64,000 bases of DNA from Parabacteroides sp. An277 (GTDB taxonomy: Bacteria > Bacteroidota > Bacteroidia > Bacteroidales > Tannerellaceae). Under the pieces are notes generated by a model that was not told the origin of the DNA, ran no database searches, and worked only from the letters and a program-made list of their open reading frames with translations. This document shows, piece by piece, positions 431 through 61,445 of the stretch. The position numbers were made by a program, and so were the translations under genes. Position 1 is the stretch's first letter; every line of letters starts with the position of its first letter. The stretch lies in the NCBI RefSeq assembly GCF_002159645.1, contig NZ_NFJB01000003.1, positions 62,001-126,000 on the forward strand, written 5' to 3'.

Positions 431-590
431 GCGTCGTGGAGGACGAGGAAAAATTTTTTCCAGCTTGCTGGCACCGTGGCGAACGAGGAAAAATTTTTTC
501 CGGCTTGCTGGCACCGTGGTGAACGTGAAAAAAATTTTTCCAGCTTGCTGACACCGTGGTGAACGCAGAAAAATTTTTTCCACGTTCCCA
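431..590. repeat. Tandem hairpin array A, 40-bp period, about 4 units
   Basis: Units begin at 445, 485, 525 and 565, exactly 40 bp apart, with a partial copy before them. Each unit carries three consecutive palindromes: GGAAAAATTTTTTCC, CCAGCttGCTGG and CACCgtGGTG. The array fills the gap between the barrel gene (stop at 619) and the lipoprotein start at 383. There are no unique spacers between units, so it is not CRISPR. Function is not known. Confidence 0.85.
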
Positions 591-5527: not shown

Positions 5528-6000
5528 CTTTTTCCTTGATGAAAAAGAACCAAAAAATCAAGGCTGCGTCTGCTGGGCTACTCGTTCGCTGCACTCCGCT
5601 GTTCGCGCCGCAAACTCGCGCTCCGCGCTCAAACAGCGACGCTCTCGGCCGCTTCGTTCCGCTCGCTCGCTTTACGCCCACCAGACAGAGGCCGGTTTAA
5701 TGGACAATTGACAATGGACAATTGACAATTCATAACGCCTTATGGCTGACCTTTGTTCGCCTTTTGTGTGTCTAAACCTCAATGGACAATTGTCAATTGT
5801 CCATTATCCATTGTCAATTATTAATTGGATTGGCCTAACGGAAGCGGCGTAAAGCAAATTCCAAGCGGAGCGAAAAGAAATCTCGGCTGTTTGAGCGAAG
5901 CGAGTTTCCGAGATTTCCGCACCGCGCCGCGAATTTGTAGCCGCTGGAGTGTAAGCCTTGACTTTTTGGTTCTTTTGGGTCAAGCCAAAAGAACGGAAAC
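5528..6000. repeat. Large imperfect inverted repeat, about 470 bp, no gene
   Basis: The outer arms around 5540-5565 (AAAAGAACCAAAAAATCAAG) and 5950-5995 are imperfect reverse complements. Towards the middle, GGACAATTGACAATGG-type repeats at 5700-5730 are mirrored at 5780-5825. Intermediate sequence (GCGCTCCGCGCTCAAACAGC against GGCTGTTTGAGCGAAGCG) also pairs loosely. The centre is near 5755. Open frames inside are low-complexity and antisense to one another, so no coding sequence is called. It resembles the non-autonomous, MITE-like hairpin elements scattered in Bacteroidales chromosomes (inference). No target-site duplication could be assigned. Confidence 0.65.
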
Positions 6001-13590: not shown

Positions 13591-13755
13591 CCTTATATAT
13601 TTACCATTTCAATACGGAGATGGTAAAGAAATCGAATATCCTTACCATCTTCATACGGTAATGGTAAGGAGACGGGATATATTTACCGTTCCCGTGCTAA
13701 AATAGTAAGGAAATGGGATATATTTACCATTTCCGTACGGAATTGATAAATAATT
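13591..13755. repeat. Tandem hairpin array B, 41-bp period, 4 units, inside the efflux operon
   Basis: TTACC cores lie at 13601, 13642, 13683 and 13723 (spacings 41, 41, 40). In units 1 and 2 TTACCAT pairs with ATGGTAA across a 12-base loop. Unit 4 carries the perfect palindrome TTCCGTACGGAA, and unit 3 is degenerate. The consensus is one long palindrome, ATTTACCATTTCC joined to its complement. It separates the permease gene (stop 13781) from the adaptor (start 13538). Confidence 0.8.
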
Positions 13756-20100: not shown

Positions 20101-20385
20101 GCCTGACCGGTCAGGCACGCTTCCGGAGCAGTCGCGGCACAAGAACGACCGGTCAGGCACGCCTCCGGAGCAGTCGCGGCGCGAGAACGACCGGTCAGGC
20201 ACGCTTCCGGAGCAGTCGCGGCACAAGAACGACCGGTCAGGCACGCTTCCGGAGCGGTCGCGGCGCGAGAACGACCGGTCAGGCATGCCTCCGGAGCAGT
20301 CGCGGCACAAGAACGACCGGTCAGGCACGCTTCTGGAGCAGTCGTGGCACAAGAATGACCGGTCAGGCACGCTTCCGGAGCGCTC
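20101..20385. repeat. Tandem hairpin array C, 42-bp period, 6 full units plus one partial
   Basis: GACCGGTC cores begin at 20105, 20147, 20189, 20231, 20273, 20315 and 20357, each exactly 42 bp apart. The first is inside the perfect 16-bp palindrome GCCTGACCGGTCAGGC (20101-20116). A second palindrome per unit is TCCGGA, usually within CTCCGGAG or TTCCGGAG. Because 42 is a multiple of three and the unit lacks stops, open frames run through on both strands (a 14-residue repeat peptide); I read these as by-products. The array fills the space between the convergent meaB and hisS genes and could act as a two-way terminator. Confidence 0.85.
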
Positions 20386-26034: not shown

Positions 26035-26297
26035 TTCGACAGCGTCGAAAGTTCCAATTTCCCGCCGGAAGCGTTTTCGACGGCGTCGAAAGTTCTAATT
26101 TTTCTCCGGAAGCATTTTCGACGGCGTCGAAAGTCTCGATTTTCTTCCGGAAGCATTTTCGACGGCGTCGAAAGTCTCGATTTTCTTCCGGAAGCATTTT
26201 CGACGGCGTCGAAAGTCTCGATTTTCTTCCGGAAGCATTTTCGACGGTGTCGAAAGTTCCAATTTTCCGCCGGAAGCATTTTCGACGGCGTCGAAAT
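26035..26297. repeat. Tandem hairpin array D, 41-bp period, 7 units
   Basis: Units start at 26035, 26076, 26117, 26158, 26199, 26240 and 26281, all exactly 41 bp apart. Each carries a 17-base hairpin TTTCGACggcGTCGAAA and most carry a second palindrome CTTCCGGAAG (first and last units have CGCCGGAAG). The middle units are nearly identical; those at the ends are diverged. The array lies 3' of the GH2 gene (stop 26386) and 5' of mnmA, at the downstream end of the polysaccharide locus. Confidence 0.85.
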
Positions 26298-53824: not shown

Positions 53825-53892
53825 AAAAAAGGGAGCTGAAACCCTCCCGCCATTCTTATGAAAGCACATGGATAGGATATTTCAAGCTCCCC
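53825..53892 (-). terminator. Terminator after DUF6261-like gene 1
   Basis: On the minus strand, GGGAGCTtGAAA (53880-53891) pairs with TTTCAGCTCCC (53831-53841) and is followed by TTTTTT (53825-53830). The loop contains a minor hairpin. It begins about 25 bp after the gene's stop at 53918. The remaining gap to 53685 shows no gene. Confidence 0.65.
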
Positions 53893-53917: not shown

Positions 53918-55060
53918 TTATACCAACTTCAGCGTTTCCGGATACGTAATCACGACCGGTTCTTCCAGTGGAGGATTTCCCTCGCCGTTGTAGTAGGTCT
54001 CTATCCGGAATTGATAGTTCCCCTCAGTCAAATCATTAATCATGTAGAACTCGATGAGAGTAGGGGTTGCTTTCGTAATGTCTTCGGTTGCCACCTTGTC
54101 ATCCAGGTCGGAGATACTCCGGAAAATAAGATCTCCCGGATTTTCGCCGGTCGCATCCAACAGATGTACATTTTCGCATTCAATTGCAATCAAAGCCCCT
54201 CGTTTTATCTCGTTCGGGTTGTCCGGATTGCCACCTTCCTTTTGATATATCCGCTTTATCACCGGTGTGGCAGGTTGAGGTGTAGGTTCGGGCGTCGGCT
54301 CGGGAGTTTCTGACGCACCCATTGTGCCTCGGCGAACCAAGATTTCATTCTGCTCCGCAATATAAGTAGTTATTTTATCTATCAGATTACCCAGAGCCGT
54401 GCGCATCGCCTCGTCTTGGTAGGCAATTTCGTTGGCTTGATACAACACATTGATGTAATTCACCAGTTCTTTGAAGGCATCGTCCACCAACGGACGAATA
54501 TTCTTCATGTTCGACAGGCTTTTTCGTCCCCATTTTTCCATCGAGCGTGTTTTGAAGGTCGAGTTAAACAGTTCGTTGCTCTCCTCCAAATCCGCCACGA
54601 CGCTATCCAATCCCAATGTCGTAATCGCCTCCGCATTCTTGTCTTCTTGCAATTTCAAGATCAACTTGTAGATTTGTGAGGTATTCTCCAAATAGGTTTT
54701 GTTATTAGCCTGTCGGAAAGGTTTCAATACATAAGCCAATTGCGTAGCAGCCTCGCGTTTGGCCTCATCCTTGCAATATAAGTGGGCATCCACCGTATGC
54801 CGCAGGAAGAGAAAAGCCTCATCACGCAAGACATCCGTAGTAGTTACTTGAGACGTATACGTAGACCCTTTGTCCTCATTGTATACAGCCTCCTCCCGCA
54901 GAAATTCTCCTGCGTAGAGTGTCCGTGGCGTTGTCAGATAGTTTGCTTCCGCAACCTCTTCTGTCACGTCACCCAGCACATTCTTATGAAAAAGATAGTG
55001 CTCTCCGTTCCTAAGTTTTCCTAAAAGTGTTGAGCAGTTAGGAATCTTTTTAACTTCCAT
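53918..55060 (-). CDS. DUF6261-like array-associated protein 1
   Basis: A 380-aa cytoplasmic protein with no signal peptide or membrane segment. ATG 55060 (MEVKKIPNCSTLLGK) is chosen because it aligns with the paralogue at 60034-61161; the longer frame to 55081 needs a TTG. Residues 1-245 are helical, with RNGEHYLFH, VTEEVAEANYLT, FVLKP-like YVLKPFRQ and the strongly conserved NMKNIRPLVDDAFKELV, INVLYQANE and LGNLIDKI. A proline linker (about 252-263) leads to an Ig-like domain (about 265-380; IYQKEGGNPDNPNEIKRG, LTEGNYQFRIET) that resembles the DUF4469 domain fused to HU-like DNA-binding proteins in Bacteroidetes (from memory). Own promoter, hairpin-array leader and terminator. Function unknown. 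Confidence 0.85.
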   Translation of the reverse strand: MEVKKIPNCSTLLGKLRNGEHYLFHKNVLGDVTEEVAEANYLTTPRTLYAGEFLREEAVYNEDKGSTYTSQVTTTDVLRDEAFLFLRHTVDAHLYCKDEAKREAATQLAYVLKPFRQANNKTYLENTSQIYKLILKLQEDKNAEAITTLGLDSVVADLEESNELFNSTFKTRSMEKWGRKSLSNMKNIRPLVDDAFKELVNYINVLYQANEIAYQDEAMRTALGNLIDKITTYIAEQNEILVRRGTMGASETPEPTPEPTPQPATPVIKRIYQKEGGNPDNPNEIKRGALIAIECENVHLLDATGENPGDLIFRSISDLDDKVATEDITKATPTLIEFYMINDLTEGNYQFRIETYYNGEGNPPLEEPVVITYPETLKLV

Positions 55061-55214
55061 AGTTGTTTTTCTTCCATTCAAAATTTTTTTGGATAAACAA
55101 TCATTTCATAGCAAAGCTTCCAACTATTGGTTAGCTTTTCCCAAGAGTTCTAAAAAGCTCCTATTAAATAGCGAACTTTTTAGCATAGTTCACATTTCAA
55201 GCAGAGAAATCGAT

Positions 55215-55443
55215 AGACTTTCGGAATGACTCCGAAACCTTCCTGTAAATCCAGGAGACTTTCAGAGCGGTTCCGAAACCTTCCTGTAAATCCAGGAGAC
55301 TTTCAGAGCGGTTCCGAAACCTTCCTGTAAATCCAGGAGACGTTCAGAATGATTCCGAAACCTTCCTGTAAATCCAGGAGACTTTCAGAGCGGTTCCGAA
55401 ACCTTCCTGTAAATCCAGGAAACTTTCGGAACGCCTCCGAAAG
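55215..55443. repeat. Tandem hairpin array E, 41-bp period, 5 units plus one partial, leader of DUF6261-like gene 1
   Basis: Units start at 55215, 55256, 55297, 55338, 55379 and 55420, each exactly 41 bp apart. Each has a 7-bp stem with a 5-base loop: TTTCGGA-atgac-TCCGAAA in unit 1, TTTCAGA-gcggt-TCCGAAA in units 2, 3 and 5, a related form in unit 4, and TTTCGGA-acgcc-TCCGAAA in unit 6. A second hairpin, TCCTG-TAAATC-CAGGA, follows in units 1-5. The array lies wholly between the promoter at 55464-55471 and the ATG at 55060, so it should be transcribed as 5' leader, ending 155 bp from the ATG. Confidence 0.88.
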
Positions 55444-55463
55444 GGTATTAATTTCTCTTGGCA

Positions 55464-55471
55464 CAAAGATA
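55464..55471 (-). promoter_or_regulatory. Promoter -7 element (TATCTTTG) of array E and DUF6261-like gene 1
   Basis: Minus-strand TATCTTTG, exact TAnnTTTG match. The expected start of transcription is near 55459, just before the array. It lies in the 90-bp gap after the GH97 stop. Confidence 0.65.
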
Positions 55472-60033: not shown

Positions 60034-61161
60034 TTACATCAACAATTTGATAGTTTGCGGATATTCCACCACGAGCGGGCTACCCCCATCGTAAGTCTCT
60101 ATACGGATGGTATAGTCTCCTTCCGTGAGGTATTCTGTCATGATAAATTCGCAATACTTATTCGACCGTTCCAGAATATTCTCTGCCGGAACCGTATCAT
60201 CCCAATCGGTGTTGCTTCGGAGAATAATATCCCCCGGACCATCCCCCGTCTCATTGACAAGCTCAAAGCCCCCTGTCCATTCTATCCGTGCCCGTTTGCC
60301 CTTTTTAATTTCATTCGGCTTATCCGGATTCCCCTCTTCTACTTGGTAGACAGCTGTAATCGCTGCCTCTTCCGGCTTAGGTTCGGGGTCATCGGGAATA
60401 TCCACCTTCGAGCCATCGCCACGGTGGGTAATAGCATCATTCAGTTCTATAATATAGGAATTAATCGTGTCAATCAGTTTCCCTAAAGTAGTCCGTACCT
60501 CGTCCGACTTTTCTGTCAGTTCATTGGCATAATACAATACATTTATTGTCGTGACCAACTCATGATAGGCCGCATCCACTTCCGGACGAATCGTCTTCAT
60601 ATTTACCTTCACCTTGCGAGAATGTTTCTCGCCGGAGCGGGCATCAAACAGGGTTTGGAACTCATTATTCACCGTCTCCAGTTCCGTCACTATCTCCGTC
60701 AGCCCCAACGTAGCCAACGGCTCAGTATACTCCTCCCGTTTCAAGTCCTGGATCAAGCTATACACCTCAGAAGTATATTCCATATATGATTTCCTGTCTG
60801 CCGAGCGATAAGGTTTCAACACAAACGATAACAGCTCGGCCGCGGCTTGCTTGTCCGCCGACCGCAGGCGCGTCCCGTTCTCTATTTCAGTTTTCAAATA
60901 GAGAAAGATTTTACTCCGTTCCTTGTTCTTTTCCGAAATACTTTTCGTCGAAGCATAGCCCACATTCGTTTTATAGACCTCGTCCTCTATCAAGTATTTC
61001 GCTACATACGGCGTACGTTGTGCTGTCAGATGCTGAGCTTCCGCCAGTTCCTCCGTTACGATGCGCGTCACTTTCATGTGAAAATTATGATGCTCACCAT
61101 TACGACTCTTACTCAATAAATTCAGACACTTCGTGATTTGTTTTACTTTTGTTGTTTCCAT
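60034..61161 (-). CDS. DUF6261-like array-associated protein 2
   Basis: A 375-aa paralogue of the 53918-55060 product, cytoplasmic by lack of signal or membrane segments. It starts at ATG 61161 (METTKVKQITKCLNLLSK). Shared blocks include SRNGEHHNFH, VTEELAEAQHLTAQRTPY, FVLKPYRSADRKSYMEYTSE, NMKTIRPEVDAAYHELVT, INVLYYANE and LGKLIDTI in the helical part. A linker (PDDPEPKPEE) leads to the Ig/DUF4469-like domain (VYQVEEGNPDKPNEIKKG, LTEGDYTIRIET). The two proteins are clearly related but well diverged, so they are not a recent duplication. Like its paralogue it follows a TAnnTTTG promoter and a hairpin array. Function unknown. Confidence 0.85.
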   Translation of the reverse strand: METTKVKQITKCLNLLSKSRNGEHHNFHMKVTRIVTEELAEAQHLTAQRTPYVAKYLIEDEVYKTNVGYASTKSISEKNKERSKIFLYLKTEIENGTRLRSADKQAAAELLSFVLKPYRSADRKSYMEYTSEVYSLIQDLKREEYTEPLATLGLTEIVTELETVNNEFQTLFDARSGEKHSRKVKVNMKTIRPEVDAAYHELVTTINVLYYANELTEKSDEVRTTLGKLIDTINSYIIELNDAITHRGDGSKVDIPDDPEPKPEEAAITAVYQVEEGNPDKPNEIKKGKRARIEWTGGFELVNETGDGPGDIILRSNTDWDDTVPAENILERSNKYCEFIMTEYLTEGDYTIRIETYDGGSPLVVEYPQTIKLLM

Positions 61162-61189
61162 TGTATTATTTATTTAATTATGTTTTCAT

Positions 61190-61430
61190 GACACCCCCGA
61201 AACTTTGCCGCAAGTTGCGTGGGACTTTCGGGACACCCCCGAAACCTTGCCGCAAGTTGCGTGGGACTTTCGGGACACCCCCGAAACCTCGCCGCAAGTT
61301 GCGTGGAACTTTCGGGACACCCCCGAAACCTTGCCGCAAGTTGCGTGGGACTTTCGGGACACCCCCGAAACCTTCCCGCAACTTGCGCGGACTTTCGGGA
61401 CACCCCCGATGCTTCCCACACGCAAAGGCT
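61190..61430. repeat. Tandem hairpin array F, 42-bp period, 5 units plus one partial, leader of DUF6261-like gene 2
   Basis: Units start at 61190, 61232, 61274, 61316, 61358 and 61399 (spacings 42, 42, 42, 42, 41). The main hairpin, TTTCGGG-acacc-CCCGAAA, has the same 7-5-7 geometry as array E; the second is CGCAA-g-TTGCG. The two hairpin centres are 21 bp apart. The array ends 29 bp from the ATG at 61161 and begins right after the promoter at 61438-61445, so it forms nearly the whole 5' leader. Confidence 0.88.
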
Positions 61431-61437
61431 TCCTTTG

Positions 61438-61445
61438 CAAAGTTA
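61438..61445 (-). promoter_or_regulatory. Promoter -7 element (TAACTTTG) of array F and DUF6261-like gene 2
   Basis: Minus-strand TAACTTTG, matching TAnnTTTG, 42 bp after the stop of the GH95-like gene. Transcription would start near 61433, at the first array unit. Confidence 0.6.

Follow-up and report, generated by a model that had tools for sequence, protein, structure and literature searches.

In TIGR-Tas systems, a tandem array adjoins a protein gene. In the F plasmid, parS_F (sopC) consists of twelve 43-bp tandem repeats with ten 16-bp inverted repeats that are bound by the plasmid's own ParB_F/SopB, as described in PMC6238139. RAYT genes and REP sequences display an obligate link between a gene and a palindromic repeat, with cognate repeats in trans, a repeat abundance that follows the gene, and palindromicity that is kept through sequence change, according to PMC2817692. 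Here, we describe a 64-kb stretch of the genome of Parabacteroides sp. An277 (contig NZ_NFJB01000003.1, positions 62,001 to 126,000; hereafter the window), in which a gene of the DUF6261 family lies downstream of a tandem array of palindrome-bearing 41-bp units. To our knowledge, no function is known for either the DUF6261 family or this class of repeats. In the open-licence PubMed Central (PMC) literature, DUF6261 is named in one paper, a Streptococcus oralis study, HU-HIG appears in four, one of which has it as a gene annotation, DUF4469 is not mentioned, and no such array is described among the open-licence titles listed; subscription papers and preprints lie outside this scope.

DUF6261 genes and the repeat class are nearly inseparable in one genus, and at most loci tested in other genera of the order. 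The linkage is near-obligate, the period is fixed, each unit carries two palindromes, the array sequences are mostly private to a locus with partial matches in trans, and the proteins share C-terminal modules. From these features we infer binding, autoregulation, docking, and a purpose. The account that we prefer, and hold with moderate confidence, is that DUF6261 genes and arrays are cognate pairs that would act at the DNA level, both in cis and in trans.

DUF6261 genes and their upstream arrays

The original prediction described the first cassette of the window as a self-contained unit of promoter, array, gene, and terminator, and this order is recovered on the minus strand, with a promoter-like box, array, and gene in the region 53918-55471 and a terminator-like hairpin at 53848-53831 (Table 1). 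The expected five 41-bp units plus a partial unit agree with Tandem Repeats Finder (TRF; period 41, 5.6 copies, 90% matches) and with a unit-by-unit reading, which give five units and a terminal half unit. The phased elements, put at about 11, are recovered as 11 alternating palindromes in the order A B A B A B A B A B A, in which A is of the TTTCGGA..TCTGAAA type and B of the TCCTG..CAGGA type. The array is separated by 154 bp from an open reading frame (ORF; 55060-53918) that encodes, from its first ATG, the 380-aa protein as predicted, with a match to PF19775 (DUF6261; 1.6e-33). Terminator-like hairpins followed by T runs number five across the window, compared with 1.6 in shuffles. The second copy (60034-61445) repeats the order of box, array, and gene with a different, 42-bp unit.

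The window cassette is one case of a general rule. A period of 38-44 is detected within 650 bp upstream of 37 of the 38 DUF6261 genes in the An277 genome, compared with 19 of 288 control genes (Fisher 1.8e-33), and the 38th gene (L032) has a lag of 80, or 2 x 40. The threshold for linkage was the highest of 38 single-base shuffles; the control genes were ORFs of at least 120 aa in 464 kb of the same genome, unmatched in intergenic length. Upstream arrays are also present at 88 of 99 DUF6261 loci in relatives, and the lags that exceed the null over all loci are 42 (60 loci), 41 (53), 40 (7), 43 (5), and 80 (1). The relatives form a non-random sample, consisting of 30 of the 52 hits in one genome (G009), 30 of the 36 in another (G020), and the best one or few of the others. 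From an initial 107 loci, L161, L164, and L066 were dropped as duplicates or a fragment and five loci with less than 250 bp upstream were excluded; L134 and L135 are adjacent and represent the same gene, hence one repeat remains among the 99. Relatives are also encoded at two loci of an uncultured Parabacteroides metagenome-assembled genome, one of which (L197) has the same array unit as L118 in G020.

Within the genus, DUF6261 genes number 38 in An277 and 52 in G009, and some members have none. The family is present in 46 of 393 genomes and 27 of 206 genera of the order Bacteroidales, with An277 and its genus counted. Outside the genus, where one best-scoring locus per genome was sampled, 21 of 27 loci have an array (18 at lag 41 and three at lag 42), representing 15 of 19 genera; the remaining six comprise two loci with a lag of 82 or 83 and four with no array. 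The claim that array and gene form a unit is decisively upheld by this enrichment among homologues, inside the genome and beyond the genus.

Geometry and turnover of the arrays

Counts of palindromes, arm mismatches, boxes, co-divergence, and folding refer to the loci with a TRF array, which are 30 of the 38 in An277 and 67 in relatives (97 arrays). The best palindrome of the unit scores at least 6 in 77% of the 30 and 69% of the 67 arrays, compared with 7.6% of shuffled units; in the window, copy 2 reaches 7.0 and copy 1 only 5.0, with 4.8 for its second palindrome. Palindrome centers are spaced by half a unit, with a tolerance of 1 bp, in 43 of the 80 linked and solitary arrays that pass the score cut, versus 10.5% of shuffles under a slightly laxer cut. 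Half a unit corresponds to 20-21 bp, or about two helical turns of B-DNA. Over the full unit, the mean identity between copies and consensus is 90% (copies below 60% excluded), and the variable spacers between constant repeats that define CRISPR- or TIGR-type guide arrays are not found in the 97 arrays.

Units so uniform, lying near promoter-like boxes and turning over fast, are also what a minisatellite switch would offer, in which recombination-prone repeats alter gene expression through copy number and DUF6261 recognizes nothing. Such a switch is very unlikely, since it predicts neither a fixed period of 40-43 across genera, nor palindromes at half-unit spacing, nor matches in trans within the same genome.

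Array sequences are nearly always private to their locus; in An277, only those of L007 and L009 are close (similarity 0.90, next best 0.38). The distance from array to gene is kept despite changes in the array (118, 119, and 121 bp at some loci; 138 and 139 bp at others), and both arms of a palindrome can change together, as in TCCGACAATGTCGGA of L012 and TCCTACAATGTAGGA of L125. The array sequence changes faster than the protein, while period, palindromes, and position stay. Among protein pairs of at least 80% identity, 88% of 17 have arrays above the 95th percentile of random pairs, as do 39% of 23 pairs at 60-80% and 10% of 52 at 50-60%, the pairs not being mutually independent. Recognition of sequence is neither proven nor excluded by these proportions, and co-divergence was rejected as a proof of specificity.

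Two pairs of loci are mosaic. L124 and L125 have different arrays and three residue differences around position 10, and L007 and L118 differ in eight of the first 30 residues and in one later; in both pairs, the gene bodies are identical or nearly identical in DNA over long stretches, and the arrays and the first 16-26 codons differ. The nucleotide pattern resembles a gene conversion that covers the gene body and ends before the array is reached. A hypervariable N-terminus is a candidate determinant of specificity, against which stand this pattern and the pairs L042/L047, L096/L102, and L055/L118, which do not display the difference.

DNA site or leader RNA

The array had been predicted to lie wholly within the 5′ leader of the gene. 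Promoter-like positions were assessed with the pattern TAnnTTTG, which we take to be the Bacteroidetes -7 box. The box precedes the array by at most 80 bp at 23 of the 97 loci and falls between the array and the ATG at 26 (six in the antisense control), with a box on neither side or on both at 51; 20 of the 27 boxes between array and gene are located 29-56 bp before the ATG. Both window copies belong to the loci with a box before the array, so that the leader position apparently holds for them but is not supported as a rule. The occurrence of the box on either side of the array fits a DNA site better than leader RNA.

A series of hairpins that the array forms in the 5′ leader, and that the protein binds as RNA, would be consistent with the boxes that precede 23 arrays, including both window copies, and with the slight excess of G-T over A-C among arm mismatches (225:170; 47 loci to 30, with 20 equal, p 0.07). 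It agrees less well with the boxes that separate the array from the gene, most of them at a short distance from the ATG, or with the folding energy, which has no clear strand bias (the sense strand folds more stably than the antisense strand at 53 of 97 loci, p 0.08). Palindromes with an unpaired center of 0-2 bases (95 of 189) are as common as those with larger loops, and arrays occur without the gene. Between the RNA-protein and DNA-protein systems offered by the original prediction, the signs of RNA are weak and the DNA-level reading is favored; the leader-RNA idea is weak in general, and we consider it highly improbable, although loci whose box precedes the array may have an RNA role.

Solitary arrays and matches in trans

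In 464 kb of the An277 genome, 20 arrays are detected, two of which belong to the DUF6261 genes of the window. The density of TRF arrays of period 38-44 per 400 kb is 32 in G009 (52 DUF6261 genes), 16 in An277 (G000; 38 genes), 0 in G019 (7 genes), and 0 in G014 (1 gene); of the four genomes sampled, only the two that are rich in DUF6261 genes have solitary arrays. In G009, all 32 arrays are more than 1.5 kb away from any DUF6261 hit. Similarity to a DUF6261 array of the same genome exceeds the 99th percentile of shuffles (>0.34) for 19 of 32 solitary arrays in G009, where 24 of the DUF6261 arrays were used for comparison, and for 8 of 18 in An277, versus 4 of 32 and 0 of 18 when the arrays of the other of these two species are used. 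At a similarity of at least 0.5, the counts are 8 of 32 and 3 of 18 versus 0 of 32 and 0 of 18. The neighbors of solitary arrays in An277 look like ordinary genes, one of them MeaB by Pfam and others presumably hisS-, coaD-, and gyrB/parE-like.

Gene and array could together be a source that seeds intergenic copies, as in REP/RAYT, with palindromes that serve spreading and any regulation secondary. Some solitary arrays match a single DUF6261 array in the genome that carries them, solitary arrays are limited to the copy-rich genomes among the four sampled, and their flanking genes look ordinary, all of which would be expected of spreading; the same correlation of gene and repeat is described for REPs in PMC2817692. 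Spreading is nevertheless unlikely, as neither window protein matches a transposase or nuclease family above cut-off (Pfam, PHROGs, NCBIfam), the arrays are one-sided and tandem rather than flanking inverted pairs, and nearly every locus has a sequence of its own.

Domains and tags of DUF6261 proteins

The two window proteins match PF19775 with 116.3 and 131.8 bits (curated cut-off 27). The copy 1 protein is composed of a helical N-terminal part (to residue ∼247), a linker, and an Ig-like C-terminal part of DUF4469 type (264-380). This C-terminal domain had been likened to one carried by HU-like DNA-binding proteins, and the likeness is borne out by a borderline match to PF14734 (DUF4469; 22.7 bits, cut-off 22.6), by the model of residues 264-380, which has an Ig fold and aligns with the putative DNA-binding protein 4fmr_D of Bacteroides vulgatus (Z 15.2, root-mean-square deviation 2.4, 111 aligned residues), and by the company of DUF4469 and HU families described below. 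A Pfam scan of copy 2 gives no PF14734 match. The N-terminal models are all-helical, without strands (mean predicted local distance difference test 80.8 and 85.0; predicted template modeling score 0.47 and 0.58; four-row alignments), and a sequence search against solved structures gives a best E of 0.057.

Pfam detects no HU superfamily domain (PF18291, PF14848, PF00216) in either window protein, and no ParB family, although a distant relative of ParB could escape such lists. Tyrosine transposases of the IS200/IS605 type are likewise absent from both proteins, for which Pfam gives DUF6261 and DUF4469 only and PHROGs none; NCBIfam matches are all far below cut-off. The original prediction also raised a defence or mobile module, which is not borne out for the two proteins: PADLOC gives 0 families, and neither PADLOC nor PHROGs has a match up to E 0.1.

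The two parts of the protein are conserved to different degrees. Among 25 full-length paralogues of the 38 in An277, the median residue identity is 26% in the N-terminal and 85% in the C-terminal part. For the 19 with the commonest Ig type, these values are 24% and 93%, and third positions at conserved residues agree at 65%. From the difference between 93% residue and 65% third-position agreement, the constant C-terminal domain seems to be held by selection on the protein and not by recent copying alone.

In place of the Ig domain, most of the DUF6261 proteins seen in other species have a short terminal peptide that is specific to the species. These tags are DDRPVVQ in G009, DDRPVIE in G019, G022, and G024, SESPDEI in G016, and RPGEL in G013. 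The tag of the species, or nearly that tag, is shared at 13 of 29 HU-HIG loci (four of six each in G016, G013, and G009, there as GPVVQ, and one of six in G019); the set consists of 30 loci of hits in five genomes (L166-L195), with L187 excluded. In a pattern search, ESPDEI-stop is coded at 16 places in G016 and DRPVIE-stop at 55 in G019, compared with 0 for either pattern in reverse, and the tag terminates an open frame in 16 of 16 and in all 30 that were fetched of the 55. Pfam assigns 44 tagged proteins of the two species, with two short ORFs (36 and 46 aa) excluded, to overlapping families with no others listed: HU-HIG (26), HU-DNA_bdg (24), Bac_DNA_binding (17), DUF4469 (15), DUF6261 (4), and HU-CCDC81_bac_2 (2). 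The tag common to DUF6261 and HU-type proteins places DUF6261 in DNA-binding company in species other than that of the window; in An277, only the Ig domain links it to HU-type proteins. A 36-aa ORF with a terminal DDRPVIE (L226:1411-1521), basic before the tag, may encode a tag-only peptide or be what is left of a gene.

Part of the HU-HIG loci have upstream arrays of their own, with lags of 20-23 at 14 of 29 loci and of 44 at four more (e.g. L179:1356-1440, L183:1938-2018, and L185:1348-1432); lags of 20-24 occur at 5-11% of control genes across four genomes. Arrays of ∼22 bp are present for 11 of 11 proteins of 197-215 aa and 7 of 18 others, and an overlapping set of short tagged proteins has lags of 20-24 at only 5 of 24. 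A period of 36-46 is seen at one of the 29 loci, at 46, or 2 x 23. The use of HU-HIG as an array-free control was rejected, as it holds for the period 36-46 only. DUF6261 and HU-HIG, whose tails are partly shared, each have a class of palindromic arrays spaced at about two helical turns. In An277, L069:801-1161 contains solitary 22-bp palindromic arrays, with two to three unit types in series, beside a 216-aa gene.

Burroughs et al. reportedly proposed in 2017 a role in genome conflict for the expanded HU proteins of Bacteroidetes. DUF6261 proteins bound to arrays might similarly mark self or silence invaders, which would suit an expanded and diversified N-terminal part joined to a constant C-terminal module that is common to HU-HIG and HU-DNA_bdg proteins. 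We regard a conflict or defence role as improbable: PADLOC and PHROGs give no match and Pfam no nuclease family for the two window proteins, and nothing mobile is apparent among the genes that flank the solitary arrays sampled, of which the MeaB of the window was identified by library search and the others were judged by appearance.

Proposed cognate pairs at the DNA level

The preferred account of cognate pairs proposes that the array offers a palindromic site every ∼20.5 bp, or two helical turns, with A and B alternating. The DUF6261 protein, or a complex that contains it, would recognize the array beside its own promoter, resulting in autoregulation, and would also recognize matching arrays elsewhere on the chromosome. 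The diverse N-terminal domain may supply identity, and the constant C-terminal module, either the species tag shared with HU-type proteins or the DUF4469-type Ig domain, may dock the paralogues onto a common nucleoid factor. The end purpose could be chromosome organization or the control of genome conflict. If true, this would be a form of protein-DNA addressing with a fixed geometry and a freely varying sequence. DUF6261 and DUF4469 gain a testable role, recognition can be measured directly on the dozens of natural variants in each genome, and the species-specific tag that HU-type proteins share with DUF6261 points to a common partner not yet described.

Several observations weigh against this account, the strongest being the acidity of the N-terminal domain and the very rapid change of the array sequences. 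Residues 1-245 have a mean isoelectric point of 5.7 (range 4.7-9.7). Foldseek returns nothing at E <= 0.001 for the N-terminal part, and VIA-align rows reach Z 10.7, within the range common for helical models, by which a new fold is not proven. The arrays of protein pairs with 83-86% N-terminal identity may be no more alike than those of random pairs, so that base-specific recognition needs either very fast co-evolution or a few deciding residues. The A and B palindromes differ, and a single homodimer leaves this difference unexplained. A strong match within the same genome is found for only 11 of 50 solitary arrays, in comparison with part of the DUF6261 arrays. The comparison of array density is limited to four genomes, all of which have DUF6261, and in a laxer upstream scan 5 of the 262 G019 genes and 4 of the 253 G014 genes have lags of 40-46, some of which may be doubled 22-bp arrays. 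Finally, the five HU-HIG proteins examined in An277 have neither the tag (0 of 5) nor the Ig domain.

A more sweeping version of the cognate-pair account can be sketched, which we consider doubtful. Each Parabacteroides chromosome would harbor dozens of parallel and distinct systems, in which a protein defines its own 41-bp palindromic address, has its gene next to a master array, and maintains matching arrays in trans. The shared C-terminal module would join all of them, together with HU-family proteins, in one species-specific nucleoid machine, and from one species to another the addresses would change more quickly than the proteins.

Features of the window

The coordinates of both cassettes and of the arrays without a DUF6261 gene are collected in Table 1. 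A scan of the window against Rfam 15 at the gathering score gives 0 matches. Runs of the 7-bp repeat AATTGAC and its complement are present at 5699-5827. Such runs also occur at or after the stop codon of L001, L003, L005, L008, L012, L013, and L197, and often begin at the DUF6261 stop codon.

Table 1. Positions of cassette elements and solitary arrays in the window
Feature	Coordinates	Strand	Details
Promoter-like TATCTTTG box, copy 1	55464..55471	-	Starts 29 bp before TRF array
Array, copy 1	55215..55443	-	5 x 41-bp units + half unit; TRF (55215-55442), unit-by-unit reading
DUF6261 gene, copy 1	53918..55060	-	380 aa from first ATG; Pfam, AlphaFold model
Terminator-like hairpin then T6, copy 1	53831..53848	-	
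Promoter-like TAACTTTG box, copy 2	61438..61445	-	Starts 36 bp before TRF array (locus L011)
Array, copy 2	61190..61409	-	Period 42, 5.3 copies, two palindromes per unit
DUF6261 gene, copy 2	60034..61161	-	375 aa; PF19775 2.5e-38
Array without DUF6261 gene	435..582		Period 40
Array without DUF6261 gene	13595..13749		Period 41
Array without DUF6261 gene	20105..20381		Period 42; between two convergent genes, MeaB (Pfam) on the left
Array without DUF6261 gene	26035..26296		Period 41

Comparison with known systems

TIGR-Tas resembles the DUF6261 loci in the position of the array next to a protein gene, but the units within a DUF6261 array are near identical, hence the arrays contain no spacers or guides. 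The HU-HIG and HU-DNA_bdg/DUF4469 proteins have more in common with DUF6261: a tag (in four species) or the Ig domain is shared, copies number 12-54 per genome, and some HU-HIG genes have arrays. In contrast, the N-terminal part of DUF6261 is all-helical and matches no HU family, and its arrays have a period of 41 with two palindromes, compared with ∼22 for HU-HIG.

RAYT/REP shares with DUF6261 the link between gene and array, the matches in trans, and the palindromes that are kept, and in the four genomes sampled array counts of 32, 16, 0, and 0 accompany 52, 38, 7, and 1 genes. The differences are the lack of a tyrosine transposase match in DUF6261, the one-sided tandem arrays of period ∼41, and a private sequence for nearly every paralogue; membership of RAYT/REP fails on the protein. 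The parS_F site of the F plasmid is similar in its palindrome-bearing tandem repeats of ∼40 bp. Unlike parS_F, the DUF6261 arrays are chromosomal, have copies in trans, and carry two different palindromes per unit; the richest species have 38-52 DUF6261 genes per genome, and the two window proteins give no Pfam match to ParB. By analogy, and with no homology implied, each DUF6261 protein, or a partner, most likely recognizes its own array in the manner of ParB/parS or RAYT/REP.

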